The translations under genes were made by a program, and so were the position numbers. A stretch of 64,000 nt of DNA from IMG/VR virus record IMGVR_UViG_3300046507_000447, positions 1-64,000 of that record; one strand, written 5' to 3'. Of this stretch, positions 18,155-46,271 are shown one piece after another (positions within the stretch are counted from its first letter, which is position 1; each line of letters starts with the position of its first letter). This DNA comes from a virus. Below the pieces are notes generated by a model. The model was given only the letters and a program-made list of their open reading frames with translations, did not search any database and had not been told where the DNA came from.

Positions 18155-19384
18155 ATGAACCTCACAACCCTATATGCGGCGATCGGCCAGAGCGATTTCA
18201 AGAAGTCGCTTTCGCCCGCCCAGCGCAACACGATCGAGCTGATCGTCAACCAGTGGAAAGTCTTCGGCTACCCCTCCGACAACGCCCTAGCCTATGTCCT
18301 GGCGACTGCGCAGTGGGAGACGGCCAACAAGATGGTCCCCGTGCGCGAGACCCTGGCATCCACCGACAAGAGCGCGATGGCGATCCTCGAACGCGACTTC
18401 AAGGCCGGCAAGCTGAAGTGGGTCAAGACGCCTTACTGGCGCACGGGTTACTTCGGTCGCGGTATGGTGCAGCTCACCCACGAGGACAACTACAGCGGGC
18501 CGATCCGCGACGCCGTGATGGAGACGTTCGGCAAGGCATTCGATATCCACAAGGATCCATCGCTGCTCATCACGAACCCCGACATCTCGTGCTTTGTCCT
18601 GATCGAGGGCATGACAAAAGGTGTCACCCTCAAGGCGGACTTCACGCCGTGGGCGTTGGAGACGTTCATCAACGACAAAAAGGTGGACTATCTCGGCGCG
18701 CGGAAGACCGTGAACCCCGGCGACAAGAGCAGCGTCACCAAGATCAAGGATCTCGCGTTGCTCTGGGAGGAGGCTATCCGGGAAGCCCGTCGTGATGACG
18801 ACGAGCAATTCCTGGGACCGGCAGGCCCCGACGTGAAGGGCCAGGGTCTCTATGACGGGCGCGTGCATTCCGAGGTTCGTGACGTCCAGGAGTTGCTCGC
18901 CAAGAAGCTCTACCCGGTCGGCCAGATCGACGGCAAGTGGGGCGACCGAACGGCAGCAGCGGTTCTCGCGTTCCGCCGCAAGAACGGACTACCACTCACC
19001 GACGAGGACATCACCGATAAGGACTTCCTGGCGGCCCTGGCCGTGGGTGATGAGATGGAGCTTCCGACCTCCCGTACCGAGGCGACGGCGGCGGATCTGC
19101 GCGCGCAGGGGTCCAAGACGATCGCGATAGCCGATAAGCTCAAGTGGGTCGGCTCGCTCGCGATCGGCGGCGGCGGTCTGCAAGCGGTAAACTCTGGGCT
19201 CGATACCGTCGATCAGGTGAACACCACGCTCTCGCGGGTCCACGATGTTACCGCGACGGTAGTGAAATTCCTCCAGGACAACTTCCTCTTCCTGGCGGCC
19301 GGCATCGGTGCGGTCGTGGTGTGGCAGGCGATCCGGATCACCAAGGCGAAGGTCCAGGCTCACCGTGAAGGGAAGGACGTCTAA
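18155..19384 (+). CDS. Endolysin: GH19-like muramidase, peptidoglycan-binding domain, C-terminal membrane anchor
   Basis: A 409-residue protein. Residues about 45-130 show a chitinase/GH19-like lysozyme domain (ATAQWETAN with candidate catalytic Glu55, then YFGRGMVQLTHEDNY). Residues about 225-285 form a PG_binding_1 domain (GQIDGKWGDRTAAAVLAFRRKNGL in part). Residues about 376-395 are a transmembrane helix followed by a basic tail. It cleaves peptidoglycan at lysis. A C-terminal rather than N-terminal anchor is unusual. ATG follows AACGGAGCGGCCAG. Confidence 0.85.
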   Translation: MNLTTLYAAIGQSDFKKSLSPAQRNTIELIVNQWKVFGYPSDNALAYVLATAQWETANKMVPVRETLASTDKSAMAILERDFKAGKLKWVKTPYWRTGYFGRGMVQLTHEDNYSGPIRDAVMETFGKAFDIHKDPSLLITNPDISCFVLIEGMTKGVTLKADFTPWALETFINDKKVDYLGARKTVNPGDKSSVTKIKDLALLWEEAIREARRDDDEQFLGPAGPDVKGQGLYDGRVHSEVRDVQELLAKKLYPVGQIDGKWGDRTAAAVLAFRRKNGLPLTDEDITDKDFLAALAVGDEMELPTSRTEATAADLRAQGSKTIAIADKLKWVGSLAIGGGGLQAVNSGLDTVDQVNTTLSRVHDVTATVVKFLQDNFLFLAAGIGAVVVWQAIRITKAKVQAHREGKDV

Positions 19385-19734
19385 TGCCCTTGTTCCTCAC
19401 TGGACTCTGGACGTTCGTCAAGTCGCCGCTCGGGCTCGGCCTGGGCGCGGCTTTCGCTATCCTGGTTTTCGTCCAGGTCCAACGCAACGACGCGGCCGAC
19501 GGTGCTGCGGCCGAGTGCAAGGCCGACGTATATCAGCAACAGCTAAAGGATCTACAGACCAAGCTCGATGCTGCCCAGGCTCTCGCCAAGACGAACCAGG
19601 ACAAGGCCGATCAAACCGAAGCGGCCCGTGCAGCGGCCCAGAAAGAAGCCGATGATCTCAAAGCGACACTTCCACCGGACGGCAATCCTCCTATCCCTCC
19701 CGCTGTTCGTCATCGGGTGCAACAGCTCAAATGA
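19384..19734 (+). CDS. i-spanin (Rz-like)
   Basis: A 116-residue protein in a TAATG overlap with the endolysin. One N-terminal transmembrane helix (about residues 13-32, SPLGLGLGAAFAILVFVQV) is followed by a long coiled coil (about 45-95) rich in Ala, Lys, Glu and Gln. This is the layout of inner-membrane spanins, which pair with a lipoprotein in the outer membrane to fuse the two membranes at lysis. The Rz1-like gene starts inside it in another frame. Confidence 0.85.
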   Translation: MPLFLTGLWTFVKSPLGLGLGAAFAILVFVQVQRNDAADGAAAECKADVYQQQLKDLQTKLDAAQALAKTNQDKADQTEAARAAAQKEADDLKATLPPDGNPPIPPAVRHRVQQLK

Positions 19735-38358: not shown

Positions 38359-39831
38359 TTAGGCGTGTGCCGTCGTGTCGGCGGGTTCAATGTTCAACAG
38401 GTCCAGTTCGCCCGCGAGTCGCGCGCATTCGTTCCACGAAAACTTGTGGCAACCGGCCGTAAAGTCCCCATTGGGCTCGATAAGATCCACCTGGAAGTGG
38501 CCCACGCGGAGCGTCGCTCCGTTGCGCTTCCAGCTTTTGCCCGTGTCATGGCAAAGCTTGACGAAACGAAAGACCTTGATCGCGTCTTTCAGTGGCACGG
38601 TTGCGCCCTGGGATGTTTCCAGATTATCGCCGCGAACGCGCACAAGCGCGTTGCCCTTTTCATCGGCAAGGCGAACGTAGCGCAAATCAGAGTCCGTGCT
38701 ACCGGCTAACCAACGCTCGCGTTGTGTGCGTTCTTTTTCCATCCGCACGCGGTTTTCTTCGCGGATCCGCGCGTCTAGTTCTTCCGCGAATTCCCGCCCG
38801 ATCTGGACAAGCTTAGTGAGCAGTTCGCCGCGAATAAAACGGATTCCATCCATGTCGCGGAGCGCTGAAATCGCCCGCTGCAAATTGTGCTTTTCCAGGC
38901 CCACAAAATCGGTTCCGTGGGCCTTGTCGATCACGGCGCGCAAGGCCAATTTGTTGTTCCGGAAAGCATGCAAGGCGCGATGACGGGCGGCGCGCTCGAC
39001 ATAGTGAGCTGCATCCTCTTTCAGCTTTTTGTGACGCGCGGCGAGCACGGCTTGAAGCTTCTTAGGCAGGGTTTTGCCGTTGCGCTTGTAGCGATGATAT
39101 TCGAGTGCAATGCGCTTCATGACGTCGGCAACGTCTTCGCGACGACTTTTCAGCCACAACGGGTTTTCGAGCTGTCGCGCGACATGTTCGGCAAGTTGGG
39201 TATCGGAAATGGTCGCTGCGTTGCGCGCCTCTCTCAAGAGTTGTTCTGCCGCGTTCTTCTTGCCTAGCGCCGCTGCCTTGGCTTGCGCCGTCTCCGCGTC
39301 TCGATACCACTTCACAACGGAGCGCGTTTTGCCGGTAATCGCGGCGAAAAATACGGCAGTTTCAGGGTTCAGACTGAGAATGTGTTTGACCGTGAAAGCG
39401 TCAATCTGAGCCTTGAACCGGTCAGCAACTTCCGTTGTGATGTCATGGGAAAGCCGATGCAACGGCATGGTGATCGAAGTCAGATCGGGAACCGACAACG
39501 TACGCCCGTGGACGGCATGGCGCGCGTGGCTTTTGTGCTTGCCGGTGGACGTGGAATAGCCGTTCGAATTGAGCAGATAAACGCGCCCTTCCGTCGTCTC
39601 GACAATGGTTCCCAGGGCGAAATGTGTGCCATAGCTATAGAGCGTGCCATTGGCAAAGCTCATGCGATCGTCGCTTGAACGACCTTCGATAATTTCATTC
39701 TGAGCCCAGACGTGAGCCGTGTTTGAGTGGTCGCCGAAAACGTATCGGCGCCCTTGTTCCCGGTTTGCGGCAATGAGCGTGACCTTGGCGGGTTGCGCGG
39801 CGATCTGGATTTTAAGAGCTTCGATAGACAT
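38359..39831 (-). CDS. Large conserved phage protein of unknown function (490 residues)
   Basis: N-terminal block (about residues 30-115) has NTAHVWAQNEIIEGRSSDD, GTLYSYGTHFALG and YSTSTGKHKSHA, a layout I know from proteins of many phages and mobile elements. A long, very basic helical middle (residues 180-350) follows, then a C-terminal domain with ETSQGATVPLKDAIKVF and GCHKFSWNE. The basic helices suggest nucleic-acid contact. ATG is 8 bases after CAGGTC-free GAAAGG. Function not established. Confidence 0.65.
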   Translation of the reverse strand: MSIEALKIQIAAQPAKVTLIAANREQGRRYVFGDHSNTAHVWAQNEIIEGRSSDDRMSFANGTLYSYGTHFALGTIVETTEGRVYLLNSNGYSTSTGKHKSHARHAVHGRTLSVPDLTSITMPLHRLSHDITTEVADRFKAQIDAFTVKHILSLNPETAVFFAAITGKTRSVVKWYRDAETAQAKAAALGKKNAAEQLLREARNAATISDTQLAEHVARQLENPLWLKSRREDVADVMKRIALEYHRYKRNGKTLPKKLQAVLAARHKKLKEDAAHYVERAARHRALHAFRNNKLALRAVIDKAHGTDFVGLEKHNLQRAISALRDMDGIRFIRGELLTKLVQIGREFAEELDARIREENRVRMEKERTQRERWLAGSTDSDLRYVRLADEKGNALVRVRGDNLETSQGATVPLKDAIKVFRFVKLCHDTGKSWKRNGATLRVGHFQVDLIEPNGDFTAGCHKFSWNECARLAGELDLLNIEPADTTAHA

Positions 39832-40061: not shown

Positions 40062-40249
40062 CGCACGGTCCGCCTTTTCATCACGATAGACGTGCTGTCG
40101 GCAACCATATCGGCTAGGAGAATAGCGTTTGGTGTCCCCAACTTCTCAAGCGCGGAAGCGATCAAGGCGATGTCATCGCGCTCCAATTCCAGCTTTTGCG
40201 TCCTGACGCGACGTTCCGGGTTGTATGTCTGCGAAGAATTATTAGCCAT
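40058..40249 (-). CDS. Small hypothetical early protein
   Basis: A 63-residue basic helical protein (RTQKLELERDDIALIASALE). Overlaps the gene upstream by eight bases. No family recognised. Confidence 0.5.
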   Translation of the reverse strand: MANNSSQTYNPERRVRTQKLELERDDIALIASALEKLGTPNAILLADMVADSTSIVMKRRTVR

Positions 40250-41180
40250 CGTCCGACTCCTTGGAAATCTTCACTTCGCCGATGAATTTCCCGCAATCGG
40301 AATAGATCGCGGCGGCGGGAATGCCGTTCGTTTCGAAGTCAGTCGCAACGCGGCGCAACACGGCTCCAATCTCCGTTGCAGGCGAGGCCCAGTTTTCGAG
40401 CGTGGCAAAGCTCACTTCGATATGTTCCACGTCGGCAAACGCTTCCGCGCGTTCGTCGCGCTCCTTGATCGTCATAGGCGTTTCCAGAGACGACAAATCG
40501 GCAATGAGGATCGAGCCATCGGCAAGCCCTTCGAACGTGCTGTCGCGCCCGATGCAATCAATCGCTTCCGCCATGTTGGCGAAATGGGGCCTGGTAGTTT
40601 CAACAGGTTCAACGGCGGCAACCGGCTCTTTCGGCACATAGCTGGCATAGGGCGCGGTATAGCCGTAACGGATCTGCATCCGCGCCTTGGCTGCATAGTC
40701 GTGCCATGCGGAACCGTTCATCGGCTCATTGTACTTGAGACACATTGCAGCGGCGAAATTGGAAGCGGTTGCAGATTGGACTCCCAATGATCCAGCGGCT
40801 TCATTGTGAAAATTCTTTAGCGACACATACCGATATCCAGCGCGCGCGCCCAGAGTGCGAGCCGCGTTCAACACGAGGCCGAACACGTCACAATAGATCT
40901 CGATTGCCCGTTCCTGGATGTCGGCGCGTTGCCCAGCGGCAAGCGTGCGCGTTGCGTGGCCGAACTGGACCTTGACGCGGTTAGACACGGCAACGTCAAT
41001 CGATCGGTCGAAATACTGAAAGACCGTCGCATAATAGGTCCGCGACTTCGCCCAATCGAAAAACTCGATATCGAAGGTGAACATGGTCTTTGAGCCGTCC
41101 TGTTTCTGAGTGCGCGCGACGACGCCTTTCAGATCGGTTTGCAGCATGATTTTGAATGCTTCGTTGCTGTAATCGGTCAT
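40242..41180 (-). CDS. Hypothetical early protein (312 residues)
   Basis: ATG 41180 with AAAGG about nine bases upstream; the 83 codons before it read through two other genes in the wrong frame. N-terminal domain beta-rich (TMFTFDIEFFDWAKSRTYYA, RVKVQFGHATR). Middle helical (LVLNAARTLGARAGYRY). No family recognised. Large and near the origin-like region, so a DNA role is possible. Confidence 0.6.
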   Translation of the reverse strand: MTDYSNEAFKIMLQTDLKGVVARTQKQDGSKTMFTFDIEFFDWAKSRTYYATVFQYFDRSIDVAVSNRVKVQFGHATRTLAAGQRADIQERAIEIYCDVFGLVLNAARTLGARAGYRYVSLKNFHNEAAGSLGVQSATASNFAAAMCLKYNEPMNGSAWHDYAAKARMQIRYGYTAPYASYVPKEPVAAVEPVETTRPHFANMAEAIDCIGRDSTFEGLADGSILIADLSSLETPMTIKERDERAEAFADVEHIEVSFATLENWASPATEIGAVLRRVATDFETNGIPAAAIYSDCGKFIGEVKISKESDDG

Positions 41181-41382: not shown

Positions 41383-41622
41383 TTAGTTGGCCTGGACGCA
41401 ATAAGCGCCCTGGACAAGCTCGCTGGCATAGGTGGCTGTATTCATGCCTTCCATGCAATCGTCAAAGGTAAGGTCATAGTCGAGCGTCTGGATATCGCCG
41501 TTGTTATCGACCCAATCAAGGTTGTAGGTCGTATCGTCTGCCATGACCTGCGAGGCCATGTAGGCCATGCCAGAGAGGGCAAGGGTAGCAGACATGATAG
41601 TCGTCATAATCAAGGTACGCAT
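41383..41622 (-). CDS. Small exported protein
   Basis: A 79-residue protein with a signal peptide (about residues 1-28, ending ASQVMA before DDTTYN) and an acidic mature part with two cysteines (DDCMEG, GAYCVQ) able to form a disulfide. GGAGCTAGCTC precedes ATG. With 35472-35969 it is one of two clear secreted products of the early block. Confidence 0.6.
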   Translation of the reverse strand: MRTLIMTTIMSATLALSGMAYMASQVMADDTTYNLDWVDNNGDIQTLDYDLTFDDCMEGMNTATYASELVQGAYCVQAN

Positions 41623-42155
41623 GAGCTAGCTCCAATAGCTGTTGCAACCCCCTATATGGGGAGCCCTTGTCTTAGGCCTTTGTCAATGTGATTGCAACCG
41701 TAATCAGTGATCAATGGTAAACAAAGTTGCAAGCGCTCGTGCTTGCCGTACCCATGCCGAATGGCGCTCAGAGTCTAGCGAATAGAGGGGCTTAACCCCT
41801 ACTCCCTGGTAGCGCTTGTTTAGGGCTTTACGTGAATTCGTTTTAGCTAATGCAACCATGTCCACCCATGGCCGGTCGCCGGTATGGGGGTATGACCTAT
41901 GCAAGGCGTGCATGTCCTATAGGGGTATGAGCGTATGCCGGTATGGCCATGTAACGCTATAACATCAATACGTTAGGCCTACTAATAGAGGTCATGAGCA
42001 CGAGTAGAGGCAAGCGAGGGGCGAATGACGCACAGACGCGAGGTTGACCAGTGGTCGCTTGGGTCCCTCCCCTAGGTTGCAGGCTGACAGGGGGGCGCGG
42101 AGCCCTCGGTCGTCCACTCGATTCCGGATTTTCCCAGGCCCCGACAGCCGTTATT

Positions 42156-42173
42156 GTTACCCATATGGGTAAC
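42156..42173. repeat. 18-bp perfect palindrome in origin-like region
   Basis: GTTACCCATATGGGTAAC reads the same on both strands. Its half GTTAC also ends the 42331-42366 repeats, so the same protein may recognise both. Confidence 0.7.
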
Positions 42174-42330
42174 TATACTCGGTACATATTCGACCAGGAT
42201 ATCCTTTTGCCCCCAGGGTAACGTAATAACGTAACAATGTGAGGAAACACTGAAATACCGGGGCTAAATGACCTCGATTTGCGGATTTGCCGTTTTCCGG
42301 GTTTTCTGGGTAAATCGACAGTCATCACCC

Positions 42331-42366
42331 GTAATCGTCACTGTTACCGGTAATCGTCAATGTTAC
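42331..42366. repeat. Iteron pair 1
   Basis: GTAATCGTCACTGTTAC at 42331-42347 and GTAATCGTCAATGTTAC at 42350-42366, 19 bases apart, one mismatch. CACCCGTAA before and TTACGGGTG after make an outer inverted repeat. A weaker copy (GTAAATCGACAGT) starts near 42310. Confidence 0.75.
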
Positions 42367-42522
42367 GGGTGTGAGGGGTGTGACGACCGTGACAGCCCCT
42401 ATTTTAGCTTGTCTTATGAAAAACCTAATGATTTCAATATGTAAGACCCCCTAAGACAGGTGAGACAGCTATTCTATATAAAGGAATATTTTAGAAACCA
42501 TAATAAAGAGCGCGACCTGTAT

Positions 42523-42560
42523 ACGTAAGCATTACCAGCACACGTAAACATTACGAGCAC
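42523..42560. repeat. Iteron pair 2
   Basis: ACGTAAGCATTACCAGCAC at 42523-42541 and ACGTAAACATTACGAGCAC at 42542-42560 are exact tandem 19-base units with two mismatches, just after the AT-rich segment. Confidence 0.75.
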
Positions 42561-42743
42561 GCGAGGCACGAGGCCAAGCGGTGGGCATAAGGCGTGCGTA
42601 GCGCGTAGCGCCAATATACTTTAGGGAAAAGCTTGACTTCTGTCTCACTGGCTCAGCGGTATGAAAAACCCAGGATTCCCAGGGCCTTCGGCCTGAGACC
42701 CACGGTGAGACAAGATTTAGCCCGTCTCAGCAGGAATCAAGAA

Positions 42744-42761
42744 GGCCGGGTTTCCCCGGCC
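42744..42761 (-). terminator. Terminator after the primase-helicase gene
   Basis: On the minus strand GGCCGGG-GAAA-CCCGGCC followed by TTCTTG, 37 bases past the primase-helicase stop. A tight seven-bp GC stem with a GNRA loop. The U-run is imperfect. Confidence 0.55.
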
Positions 42762-42797
42762 ATTCTAACGTTTACCCGTAATGATCCCGCGTGCTCG

Positions 42798-45689
42798 TCA
42801 CACCACGTCGAAGTCATCTTCGGCGTCATCGCCCTGATAAATCGAGTATCCCTTGAGAATGTCGGCGTGTATGGCGCTTTCGCGGACGACCCAACGCCGC
42901 TGGGGCGATCCCATGATCCGGCGACGATTATCGCTGTTCTGAACGTCGCGGCCCCAACCGGGCAGCATTTGCATGGCCTTGCCGATGTTTTGGGTCGTTG
43001 CCGCGTCGGTGACGACGCCGTGCTGTTTATTGAGCGCGTGCTTGATAGCCTGCTCGCGGGTGAAGACGGTTCGCAGGACGAGCGTGTCATCATCCACGCC
43101 GTCGGCCAGATGCTCGCCGAACTGCGCGTGAACGACCGCGCCGATCTCCTGGGCGAACTGCGTGAAGGTGATCGGGGTTTCCAGCCATTCGAGGATAGCC
43201 TGCGCCCAGATCTCGTAGGTTTCTTCGGTTCGAGCCTCGCCTTGTAGCCGCAGGGCCTCGGCCTGGGCCGCAGAACCTTGAAGCGTGAGCGGCAGGGTCT
43301 CGTTGGGAAACTGGTCGCGCAGCTCGAAATAGGCGTGGACGGCCTCGGCCCAGATCTGATCGCGCTCAGCGTTGATCCCCTGGATATCTATGTACTCGCG
43401 ACGCTTTGTGACGACCGGCCAGTAGGAACGGTTGCCGGTGGGATCCTTGAGGTACTTTTTGTCGTTCGTCGTGCCCCAGCAGACGCAGACGCGAGGAAAC
43501 TCGCTGACGCGGCGATCGTAGGCCATGCGGACGTCGTCCACGGTTCTGCGCATGAACGCCTTGGCCGAGTTGTGGTCCGACTTGTGGAAACCGGACAATT
43601 CCGGAAGCTCGATCCCCCATTTGCCGGTGATCTCTTCGGCGACGCGCTGTTTCTCGTCCAGCTTGGCGGAAAGCTCGCCGAACCAGTCTTCCGAATAGAG
43701 CGCCATGATCAGCCAGGACTTACCGATGCCGGTCCAGCCCTCCAGGATCGGGGCGTAGTCGAACTTGTGGCCGGGTTCGAAGATCCGCGTCACGCTGGCG
43801 ACGATCGTCAACCGAGAAACCTGCCGGTGATAATCGTTGTCTTCCAGGTCGAGGTATCGGATCAAGAACGTGTCCAGGCGCGGCTTGCCATCCCACTTTT
43901 GGGTGAGCAGGTAGTCGCGGATCGGATGGAACGGCGTGATGCGGGCCGCCAGCTCGATCCCGTCGATCAGGTCGGCTTTCGTCGGCCGCATGCCATAGCC
44001 CTGGAGCTTCTCGGCGTTGTGCGGGCTCTCCAGGACGGCGCGAACCGTCATGTCGTGGTGATCCTGCCAACGGTCGCCGTTCTTCTTATCGCGGACGATG
44101 ACATTCGGCGCAGTCGTTATGCGCGGCCTGATATCGCGGGCGATGACGACGTTCTTGTCGAATTCGTTGAAACGGATCGCGTTGATGAGGCGGGGGTCGT
44201 TCTGGATGATTGTCGCCACATTGTGCAGCGTCGATTTGATCTCGGCGTTCTCGGTAAACTGGAGATCGCCTAGGAACCAGTTTTCGCGCGGCGTGCGCTT
44301 CTCGGATGGCTTCGGCCGGCCACCCACGGTCTTGGATCGTGGAGGGGCTTCAGTTTTGGCAGAGGGCGCATCTGGTTGCTCCGGTTCAACTTCTGCGAAT
44401 AGTCCATCGCCATCACCAGATCCGTCGTCGGCGGAACCGGTATCAGCCCCGCCTCCAGATCGACTATCATCGTCTCCCGGCCGTTCATCGTCACTATCGC
44501 CGCTGTCACGCCCTGAAGCGTGTAGATCCGCATTGTCGTCGCCATCTGTGAACTCCTGGGCCTCTACGCCCGCGTCCTCGAACATGGACCCGACCTCGAA
44601 CTTTTCCGAGACGCGGGTCTTCGCATATTCCTTGTCGGTCTTCAGCAGATCGACCAGGGCCTTATAGGACGGCATGTCCGTCGGCGTCATGCCCTCCTTC
44701 GCCTTGCTGTCGCTTTCACCGAAAAGGTGGACGCGGACGAGGTCGAAGGCGTTGACGTTCATATCGCAGATCGGGTCATGCCCGTGGTGCGAATACATGA
44801 ACATGCCGTTGTCATAGACGATCGCGCCGTTCGAGCTGGTCGAGCCCGCATAGGTGTAACGCGGGTGCCCGGAATTCTCGTCGCCAGGGATGTAGACGCC
44901 AGGAAGGAATTTCTCCATCGCGTCGAAGATGTCGTAGGTTCGGCAGAAGACGCCGACCGGCCCGCGCTTCGAACGCGGATCCTCGGCCTTGTCAGCGCGT
45001 TTGCGCAGATCTTCGTTCGGATGCTTCGGCAGGTTGGCGAAATTGCGCCAGTCGCCGAATATGGCCTCGAACTCGGCCAGGATCGCGTCGGGGTCGAGGA
45101 GCGCGCCGAACTGCTCGTAGGCGAAAAAGATCTTGCGATCGTTCTTTGAGCACGAGGGCTTGAACATCATCTGCGCGCCGCGATAGGAGACGACGTCCAC
45201 GAGGTTCATTTCGTGGTCGAGCTTCCAACCGATGAAGCGGACAATGGCCGTGTACTCGTCAACGTCCACCTTGCGCTTCATCGGCATGAACAGACGAACG
45301 CGGGGCTCTTCGACCGTGTGCCGGCGAGACGAATGCCAGAAGGCCTCATATTGGCTGATCGGCGTCAGACCCAGCTCGATCTCGTCCAGGATCGAGGCCG
45401 GCGCGTAATCGACGTCGATCGTCAGCATATCGCGCGGCAGGACGTTGCGGAGCGACCGATGGCCGTCTTTGCACTGTGCGCCCGAGATCCAACCGTTAAC
45501 GGCCTTGAGCTTGTCCTGCTCGTCTTTCGGCATGCGGTCGAACTGCTGCCGCGACTCCATGGTCACGGCCGGCTCTTTCAGGATCTTCTTGAGGGAGGAC
45601 CAGGACTCCGTCCGGTTCTTCGACTTGGCGAGGTTGTTGCCCCGGCCCTCGGCCCAGCCGACGACATATTGCTCAAATTTGCCTTGCAT
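42798..45689 (-). CDS. Primase-helicase: AEP-like N-terminus with VapE-type helicase
   Basis: A 963-residue protein. N-terminal part has primase-polymerase-like motifs: MLTIDVDYA (DxD, residues about 88-96) and HSSRRHT (SxH) followed by EPRVRLFMP. Residues about 370-470 are an acidic low-complexity linker. From about 530 the VapE superfamily 3-like helicase is seen: Walker A GWTGIGKSW, IELPELSGF, VDDVRMAYDRR, then TTNDKKYLKDPTGNRSYWPV. It should prime and unwind at the origin next door. First large gene of the minus block. Confidence 0.85.
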   Translation of the reverse strand: MQGKFEQYVVGWAEGRGNNLAKSKNRTESWSSLKKILKEPAVTMESRQQFDRMPKDEQDKLKAVNGWISGAQCKDGHRSLRNVLPRDMLTIDVDYAPASILDEIELGLTPISQYEAFWHSSRRHTVEEPRVRLFMPMKRKVDVDEYTAIVRFIGWKLDHEMNLVDVVSYRGAQMMFKPSCSKNDRKIFFAYEQFGALLDPDAILAEFEAIFGDWRNFANLPKHPNEDLRKRADKAEDPRSKRGPVGVFCRTYDIFDAMEKFLPGVYIPGDENSGHPRYTYAGSTSSNGAIVYDNGMFMYSHHGHDPICDMNVNAFDLVRVHLFGESDSKAKEGMTPTDMPSYKALVDLLKTDKEYAKTRVSEKFEVGSMFEDAGVEAQEFTDGDDNADLHASGRDSGDSDDERPGDDDSRSGGGADTGSADDGSGDGDGLFAEVEPEQPDAPSAKTEAPPRSKTVGGRPKPSEKRTPRENWFLGDLQFTENAEIKSTLHNVATIIQNDPRLINAIRFNEFDKNVVIARDIRPRITTAPNVIVRDKKNGDRWQDHHDMTVRAVLESPHNAEKLQGYGMRPTKADLIDGIELAARITPFHPIRDYLLTQKWDGKPRLDTFLIRYLDLEDNDYHRQVSRLTIVASVTRIFEPGHKFDYAPILEGWTGIGKSWLIMALYSEDWFGELSAKLDEKQRVAEEITGKWGIELPELSGFHKSDHNSAKAFMRRTVDDVRMAYDRRVSEFPRVCVCWGTTNDKKYLKDPTGNRSYWPVVTKRREYIDIQGINAERDQIWAEAVHAYFELRDQFPNETLPLTLQGSAAQAEALRLQGEARTEETYEIWAQAILEWLETPITFTQFAQEIGAVVHAQFGEHLADGVDDDTLVLRTVFTREQAIKHALNKQHGVVTDAATTQNIGKAMQMLPGWGRDVQNSDNRRRIMGSPQRRWVVRESAIHADILKGYSIYQGDDAEDDFDVV

Positions 45690-45692
45690 GGA

Positions 45693-45920
45693 TCAGACGC
45701 CCCGCGCCTGGAGGTCGTAGAGAAGAGCGCGCAGGTTTGCGATCGGGATCGTCCGATACTTGCCGCTCTTCCAATGGCGAACGAGATTGTAATCGACGCC
45801 CATCAATTCGGAGAGGGCTTTGGACTTGATATGAAAATCTATCATGGTCGAGCGGAGAAGAGCTGTTCGGTATTCCGTGTCTTTCCACAGGGGGTCGTTT
45901 GCCGGCGCGACCGTCATCAT
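45693..45920 (-). CDS. Small HTH regulator
   Basis: A 75-residue protein with a helix-turn-helix (KALSELMGVDYNLVRHWKSG, residues about 34-53) of the Cro/XRE type. It lies between the primase gene and a strong palindrome (45937-45963) that covers its own upstream region, so autoregulation is likely. ATG-ATG start; GAAGG about 10 bases upstream. Confidence 0.7.
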   Translation of the reverse strand: MMTVAPANDPLWKDTEYRTALLRSTMIDFHIKSKALSELMGVDYNLVRHWKSGKYRTIPIANLRALLYDLQARGV

Positions 45921-45974: not shown

Positions 45975-46271
45975 TCAGTGGTCCGCAAGAGCCAAGCCGT
46001 AAATATAGGGGGAAAACTGATCGATGGTCACGGTCGAACCCGGCAGGCCGCAGACCTTTTGCGCCTTGATTGGCGGAATTCTTCCCTTCTTTATCCACAG
46101 ATAAACTCCCCAATCGGACATGTTGAGGTGCTTCGACAGCATCTCGATCGACTTCACGCCGTCTGGATTGTGGATAACTTTGCCTTTTTCATTGATCGAG
46201 GACGGCGGGCACGCCTCCAGAAGTAGGTCGTGAAACGGGCCAAGATCCCGGTTTCTCAGTATTTTCGACAT
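45975..46271 (-). CDS. Cro/YdaS-like regulator
   Basis: A 98-residue protein with a helix-turn-helix at about residues 42-62 (IEMLSKHLNMSDWGVYLWIK) followed by GRIPPIKAQKVCGL, the form seen in Cro/YdaS proteins of phages. It starts the minus-strand block and faces the plus-strand replication genes, so it is placed to control the switch. GGAG eight bases before ATG. Confidence 0.75.
   Translation of the reverse strand: MSKILRNRDLGPFHDLLLEACPPSSINEKGKVIHNPDGVKSIEMLSKHLNMSDWGVYLWIKKGRIPPIKAQKVCGLPGSTVTIDQFSPYIYGLALADH

Follow-up and report, generated by a model that had tools for sequence, protein, structure and literature searches.

A candidate replication origin between the cohesive end and the primase-helicase gene of a Chi-like phage

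Introduction

A noncoding interval rich in short repeats lies directly 3' of a primase-helicase gene in a phage genome, raising the question of whether replication starts there and, if so, which protein reads which repeats. The DNA we analyzed (the window) comprises 64,000 of the 65,902 bases in IMG/VR record IMGVR_UViG_3300046507_000447. A preliminary description read positions 41860-42743 as an origin beside the primase-helicase, with 19-bp repeats as the iterons of an initiator that may be new. The origin beside the primase-helicase is kept in our reading; the new initiator and the 19-bp pairs as its iterons are not. We judge from sequence comparison, with a probability of roughly 80%, that a Casjensviridae genome has its left end at 42092-42797, where the cohesive-end site cosN is followed by a replication origin and the 3' terminus of the initiator gene, and that the primase-helicase reads TRAGAC repeats within it.

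The pri-rep-ori replicon of PICI/SaPI elements such as SaPIbov1 and EcCICFT073 has its origin directly 3' of the initiator-helicase gene; two iteron sets flank an AT-rich region, and primase and helicase are sometimes fused (PMC6092414). The class of origin proposed here is known from that layout. The open-licence papers searched contained no description of a Chi-like phage origin.

Results

The window phage belongs to the Casjensviridae (Chi/Nazgul/DSS3-P1-like). Its polymerase, primase-helicase, exonuclease and terminase match those of S-ESS1, Ruegeria phages DSS3-P1 and V16, RcPutin, Chi and BcepNazgul, with identities of up to 52% between its polymerase and those of Casjensviridae phages. 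Polymerase homologues over at least 80% of the length occur in about 1,300 public phage records, not all of them Casjensviridae. The primase strand diverges from the exonuclease, polymerase, helicase, terminase and structural genes, a gene order also found in S-ESS1, RcPutin, Chi and DSS3-P1. With this order and its own terminase genes, the phage does not resemble a PICI satellite, which needs a helper phage's capsid. Positions 1-127 and 65776-65902 of the record are identical (127 bases), so the assembly is probably complete and circular, with a length of about 65,775 bp. When viral contigs were searched with the primase, a single-protein scan gave no match and an alignment scan found relatives. 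Matches in a DNA search of phages with the region as query were confined to its coding part, and an Rfam search gave no match.

The genome ends of Chi have been mapped to a 12-nt cos, 5'-GGTGCGCAGAGC (PMC4342425), and the RcPutin group has 5' overhangs of 12 bases (PMC8601537). By homology to the Chi cos, a 12-nt 5' cohesive end, GGGGCGCGGAGC, is predicted at 42092-42103 (+ strand), left of the primase. A conserved element, GGGTCCCTCC, lies 31 nt left of cosN at 42061-42070 (+). It recurs at the same place in V11 (DSS3-P1 type), L011, L024, L014 and BcepNazgul. The related IMG/VR contigs L021 (64,556 bp) and L023 (65,630 bp) carry it at their right ends. Both of these contigs start and end at cos, with a 13-nt terminal overlap, and contigs L026, L042 and L044 start at the cos site. 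The region of the preliminary description, which missed this site, therefore begins left of a genome end. Several GGTATG-type repeats lie left of cos, at 41880-41950. The GenBank records LC553736 and NC_052970 (SAP012 and V18) carry apparent sequencing-adapter sequence at their ends.

The gene at 42798-45689 (- strand) encodes a VapE-type primase-helicase of 963 aa (phrog_256, PF05272), our proposed origin-binding initiator. Its stop, at 42798, directly adjoins the repeat interval, and a terminator-like hairpin follows the gene at 42744-42761 (-). By profile the protein matches PDB 7pds, staphylococcal PriRep1 with dsDNA, across the helicase and into the beginning of the C-terminal domain (E 5.6e-82), and its predicted fold matches the same structure (E 3e-26, TM-score 0.76 on the target; mean pLDDT 78.5). 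A C-terminal winged-helix-like domain is predicted at 42798-43097 (-), with a modest pLDDT of 74; searched alone it gave weak winged-helix matches, the best to 7pds at a nonsignificant E of 0.06. The adjacent protein is thus homologous to the VapE/PriRep1 initiator helicase, contrary to the suggestion of a new initiator. Two other genes had been named as candidates. The product of 40242-41180 has no family match and that of 38359-39831 belongs to phrog_7247, a family of unassigned function shared only with S-ESS1 among the records compared; neither belongs to a DNA-binding or Rep family. None of the neighboring proteins tested matched a Rep family, whereas a RepA/pi-type plasmid origin has a Rep-type initiator gene close by and a DnaA box within the origin.

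Between cos and this gene lies an AT-rich core, a candidate unwinding element at 42414-42493; no other 80 bp of the genome are as AT-rich (70%, versus 64% at the next best place). Eight copies of TRAGAC occur in the 706-bp interval against 0.12 expected, at 320 (inverted), 351, 361 and 370 (direct), 551, 603, 615 and 633 from cos, four of them left and four right of the AT core. In PICI/SaPI, too, two iteron sets flank an AT-rich region. The copies at 361 and 370 were picked for their position beside the AT core and define the motif; leaving them out, six further copies against 0.12 expected give a Poisson p of about 4e-9. The left-hand copies are an inverted TAAGAC at 42411-42416 (-) and the direct iterons GTAAGAC, CTAAGACAG and GTGAGACAG at 42441-42468 (+), placed like the double direct iteron of relatives. 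The right-hand set consists of GTGAGAC at 42642-42648 (-), CTGAGAC (42693) and GTGAGAC (42705) at 42693-42711 (+), and CTGAGAC at 42724-42730 (-). GTGAGAC/GTCTCAC copies reported earlier are confirmed and belong to a larger set, STRAGAC, which has 11 copies in 64 kb, seven of them within 42441-42730. A degenerate 7-mer search of the window alone was only marginal (best motif seven copies, equalled in 3 of 60 shuffles), so the TRAGAC assignment rests on position. A degenerate direct triple, GTGTGAG/GTGTGAC/CGTGACAG at 42369-42395 (+), is a weak match to the motif. Its three units lie at 278, 287 and 297 from cos, where the direct triple of relatives belongs, with spacings of 9 and 10 nt versus 7-10 and 10-11 in Chi, DSS3-P1, V16 and L010.

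In about 20 relatives the stretch from cos to the primase-helicase stop likewise has an AT-rich core with short repeats around it, the repeats differing from phage to phage. The comparison is descriptive, with the relatives' iterons assigned partly by eye and then counted. The repeats are GTTACAA in Chi, GTGACAG in Suzuki, TTCGGACC in Nazgul, GGTGAGAG in RcPutin, TGGAACAC in DSS3-P1, TGTCCGAT in V16, GTGTGAC in L010, CCCTGCAA in L011 and GATACCCC in L023. Chi, YSD1, Seifer, DSS3-P1, V16 and L010 share the order of three direct iterons, one inverted, two direct, AT core and one inverted. Measured from cos, the direct triple, inverted iteron, direct pair and second inverted iteron lie at about 225-243, 261, 310-317 and 421 in Chi, YSD1 and Seifer, at 405-424, 447, 492-500 and 605 in DSS3-P1, and at 95-116, 129, 172-181 and 317 in L010. 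RcPutin, S-ESS1, L026 and UF_RH7 fit in part only. The same layout is found 3' of vapE in three Gram-positive phages (Enterococcus phage phiFL4A, Corynebacterium phage Adelaide and Listeria phage LWP01) and is probably shared by vapE-type phages in general. Like the window, the left ends of Chi and BcepNazgul, members of the same family, have a 12-nt 5' cos, a repeat-rich noncoding interval and a primase on the opposite strand. They differ from it in their iterons, and Chi has an HTH gene inside the interval, which the window lacks.

A natural exchange bears on which protein reads these repeats. DSS3-P1 and V16 are nearly identical around the locus, and their primases share 99% identity over residues 1-350, versus 33% in the helicase and 35% at the C-terminus. 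DNA identity is about 50% or less from around residue 350 through the iterons and returns to 93% near cos. The two iteron types were thus swapped together with the helicase and C-terminus. In L014, whose second half is V16-like, the repeats (TGTTCCATT) resemble those of V16 (TGTCCGATT). Chi, YSD1, Seifer, Smarc5 and SAP012 have C-termini 65-79% identical and keep GTTACA/GTAACA iterons, with most other sequence in the interval changed. The joint change of helicase, C-terminus and repeats argues that the VapE/PriRep-type primase-helicase next to the repeats is very probably the initiator; linkage alone could also account for it, as the swapped DNA is contiguous.

The two 19-bp tandem pairs are indeed present and flank the AT core, at 42327-42345/42346-42364 (GTAA-N9-TTAC twice) and 42523-42541/42542-42560 (ACGTAA-N-CATTAC-N-AGCAC), both on the + strand, with 17 of 19 positions identical in each. 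Among 1,000 dinucleotide shuffles of 41860-42743, 13 had a single tandem pair with a period of 12-30 and an identity of 84% or more; no shuffle had two. Only five other pairs of this kind occur in the 64 kb, none with a period of 19. Each family has only two copies, fewer than the several 17-22 bp direct iterons of a RepA/pi-type plasmid. The 18-bp palindrome GTTACCCATATGGGTAAC was likewise found, at 42156-42173. It shares GTAA/TTAC half-sites with both 19-bp families, with GGGTAACGTAATAACGTAAC at 42216-42235 and with TTTACCCGTAATG at 42771-42783 on the primase side, so these may be one site family and not two. Such sites are nearly confined to this interval.

Enrichment of GGGTAA in this interval is seen in the window, L010, L011 and L021; the motif is present in L022 and L023 and absent from DSS3-P1, V16, RcPutin, L024, L026 and others. 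Its presence is independent of iteron type, which makes it probable that the GTAA/TTAC sites have a different reader from the iterons. The position that iterons occupy in relatives is held by TRAGAC in the window, which speaks against the 19-bp families as the initiator's iterons. From these comparisons the 19-bp pairs are probably part of a second, GTAA/TTAC family that may have an operator, accessory-initiator or terminase role. The terminase small subunit was considered as its reader; it is found in most relatives, whether or not they have the sites, and is therefore uninformative.

The preliminary description had named a skew minimum elsewhere as evidence against an origin here. The GC-skew minimum does lie elsewhere, at 22.8 kb, with the maximum near 47.9 kb. 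As the skew tracks the direction of the genes, its extremes cannot locate the origin. With up to one mismatch the window has 36 DnaA boxes, as many as in shuffles, and no exact one is in the interval. Two exact matches, TTATCCACA at 46091-46099 (+) and 46169-46177 (-), lie 70 nt apart inside a small gene near divergent operons, possibly marking an alternative start or arising by chance.

Discussion

In the mechanism we propose, the C-terminal winged-helix-like domain of the primase-helicase would bind TRAGAC-type iterons on either side of the AT core (42414-42510). The helicase would load itself at these iterons and open the AT-rich core, its priming domain would start replication, and the phage's own polymerase would continue. 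The GTAA/TTAC sites, including the 19-bp pairs, would serve another factor: a regulator, an accessory initiator or the terminase. Binding, unwinding and initiation by the primase-helicase are inferred from homology, repeats, layout and the natural swap.

Like PICI/SaPI, the window would have its origin 3' of the helicase gene with flanking iterons, and its helicase is homologous to PriRep1 (7pds). Unlike them, it belongs to a full tailed phage that encodes polymerase, terminase and capsid proteins of its own, and its putative origin lies beside cosN with an extra family of GTAA/TTAC sites. The alpha protein of phage P4 combines primase, helicase and origin binding, and acts with an ori and crr that carry short iterons. 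The P4 crr is a separate, distant element, unlike the layout here. The Sfi21-type replication module of Streptococcus thermophilus phages is also similar, with a repeat-bearing origin downstream of a primase-helicase gene.

Alternatively, a repressor, for example the small HTH protein encoded at 45693-45920, could use the GTAA/TTAC sites as operators to control promoters in the interval. The two-fold symmetry of the sites is consistent with this, and so is the finding that L021-L023, the only relatives with a detected homologue of the HTH protein, have GGGTAA sites as well. However, L010 and L011 have the sites with no HTH homologue detected, no such sites lie near the divergent genes at 46 kb, and we found no sigma-70-like promoter in 41500-43000. 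Operators would also explain the GTAA/TTAC family only, and we consider this role possible but rather unlikely.

Contigs L042 and L044 count against reading by the primase-helicase. Their primases are 92-100% identical throughout, whereas the two contigs diverge between about +70 and +750, where the repeats shift between GTGACAG and TTGACAG. Each encodes a small protein in this segment (150 and 141 aa, respectively; 42% identical to each other) that is matched by a profile of the primase C-terminal domain (E 1.3e-11 and 7.3e-10). These stand-alone copies lie at L063:344-769 (L044; +) and L064:700-1200 (L042; -); no separate gene for the domain was found in the window. Judging by the profile matches, the domain that recognizes the repeats can apparently also occur as a separate gene inside the origin, in which case the exception fits the reading proposed here. 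Two readers might act at once, the primase-helicase through TRAGAC and a second protein through GTAA/TTAC, with the domain split off in L042 and L044 and changing with the repeats as the helicase stays constant. We regard this arrangement, too, as possible but rather unlikely.

A less likely alternative keeps the origin in this interval but has the primase-helicase read the GTAA/TTAC sites, that is, the 19-bp pairs and the palindrome, with TRAGAC secondary. The pairs lie on either side of the AT core and exceed shuffled sequence most clearly, the sites are nearly restricted to the interval, and the iterons of Chi itself are GTTACA. On the other hand, GGGTAA-type sites occur beside different iterons in L010, L011 and L021-L023, so they do not track the initiator, and it is TRAGAC that occupies the position beside the AT core.

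The repeats are very unlikely to be cosB-like terminase-binding sites of a packaging site, even with cosN 53 nt left of the palindrome and GTAA/TTAC sites 1 and 2 placed where cosB of lambda would lie, since the repeats extend to +630 and flank the AT core, those of DSS3-P1 and V16 change with the helicase half as the cos-proximal part stays constant, and the layout also occurs 3' of vapE in phages without a visible cos. The Chi group (Chi, SAP012, Smarc5, YSD1 and Seifer) does have IHF-like sites at +59/60 and about +155 from cos, fixed positions that recall lambda cosB and would favor such a role; none was found in the window.

If the primase-helicase does read TRAGAC at an origin here, the layout would pinpoint the origin by inspection across a large phage family. 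The adjoining cos raises the question of how one segment serves both replication and packaging. Natural exchanges of helicase halves with their repeats would be ready-made pairs for studying which residues recognize which repeats. DSS3-P1 and V16 have a second diverged block, at about 18860-19459 in DSS3-P1, with roughly 35% aligned identity at its lowest. It sits between stretches of 97-99% identity, and its gene is annotated as an endolysin in DSS3-P1 versus a phosphofructokinase in V16.
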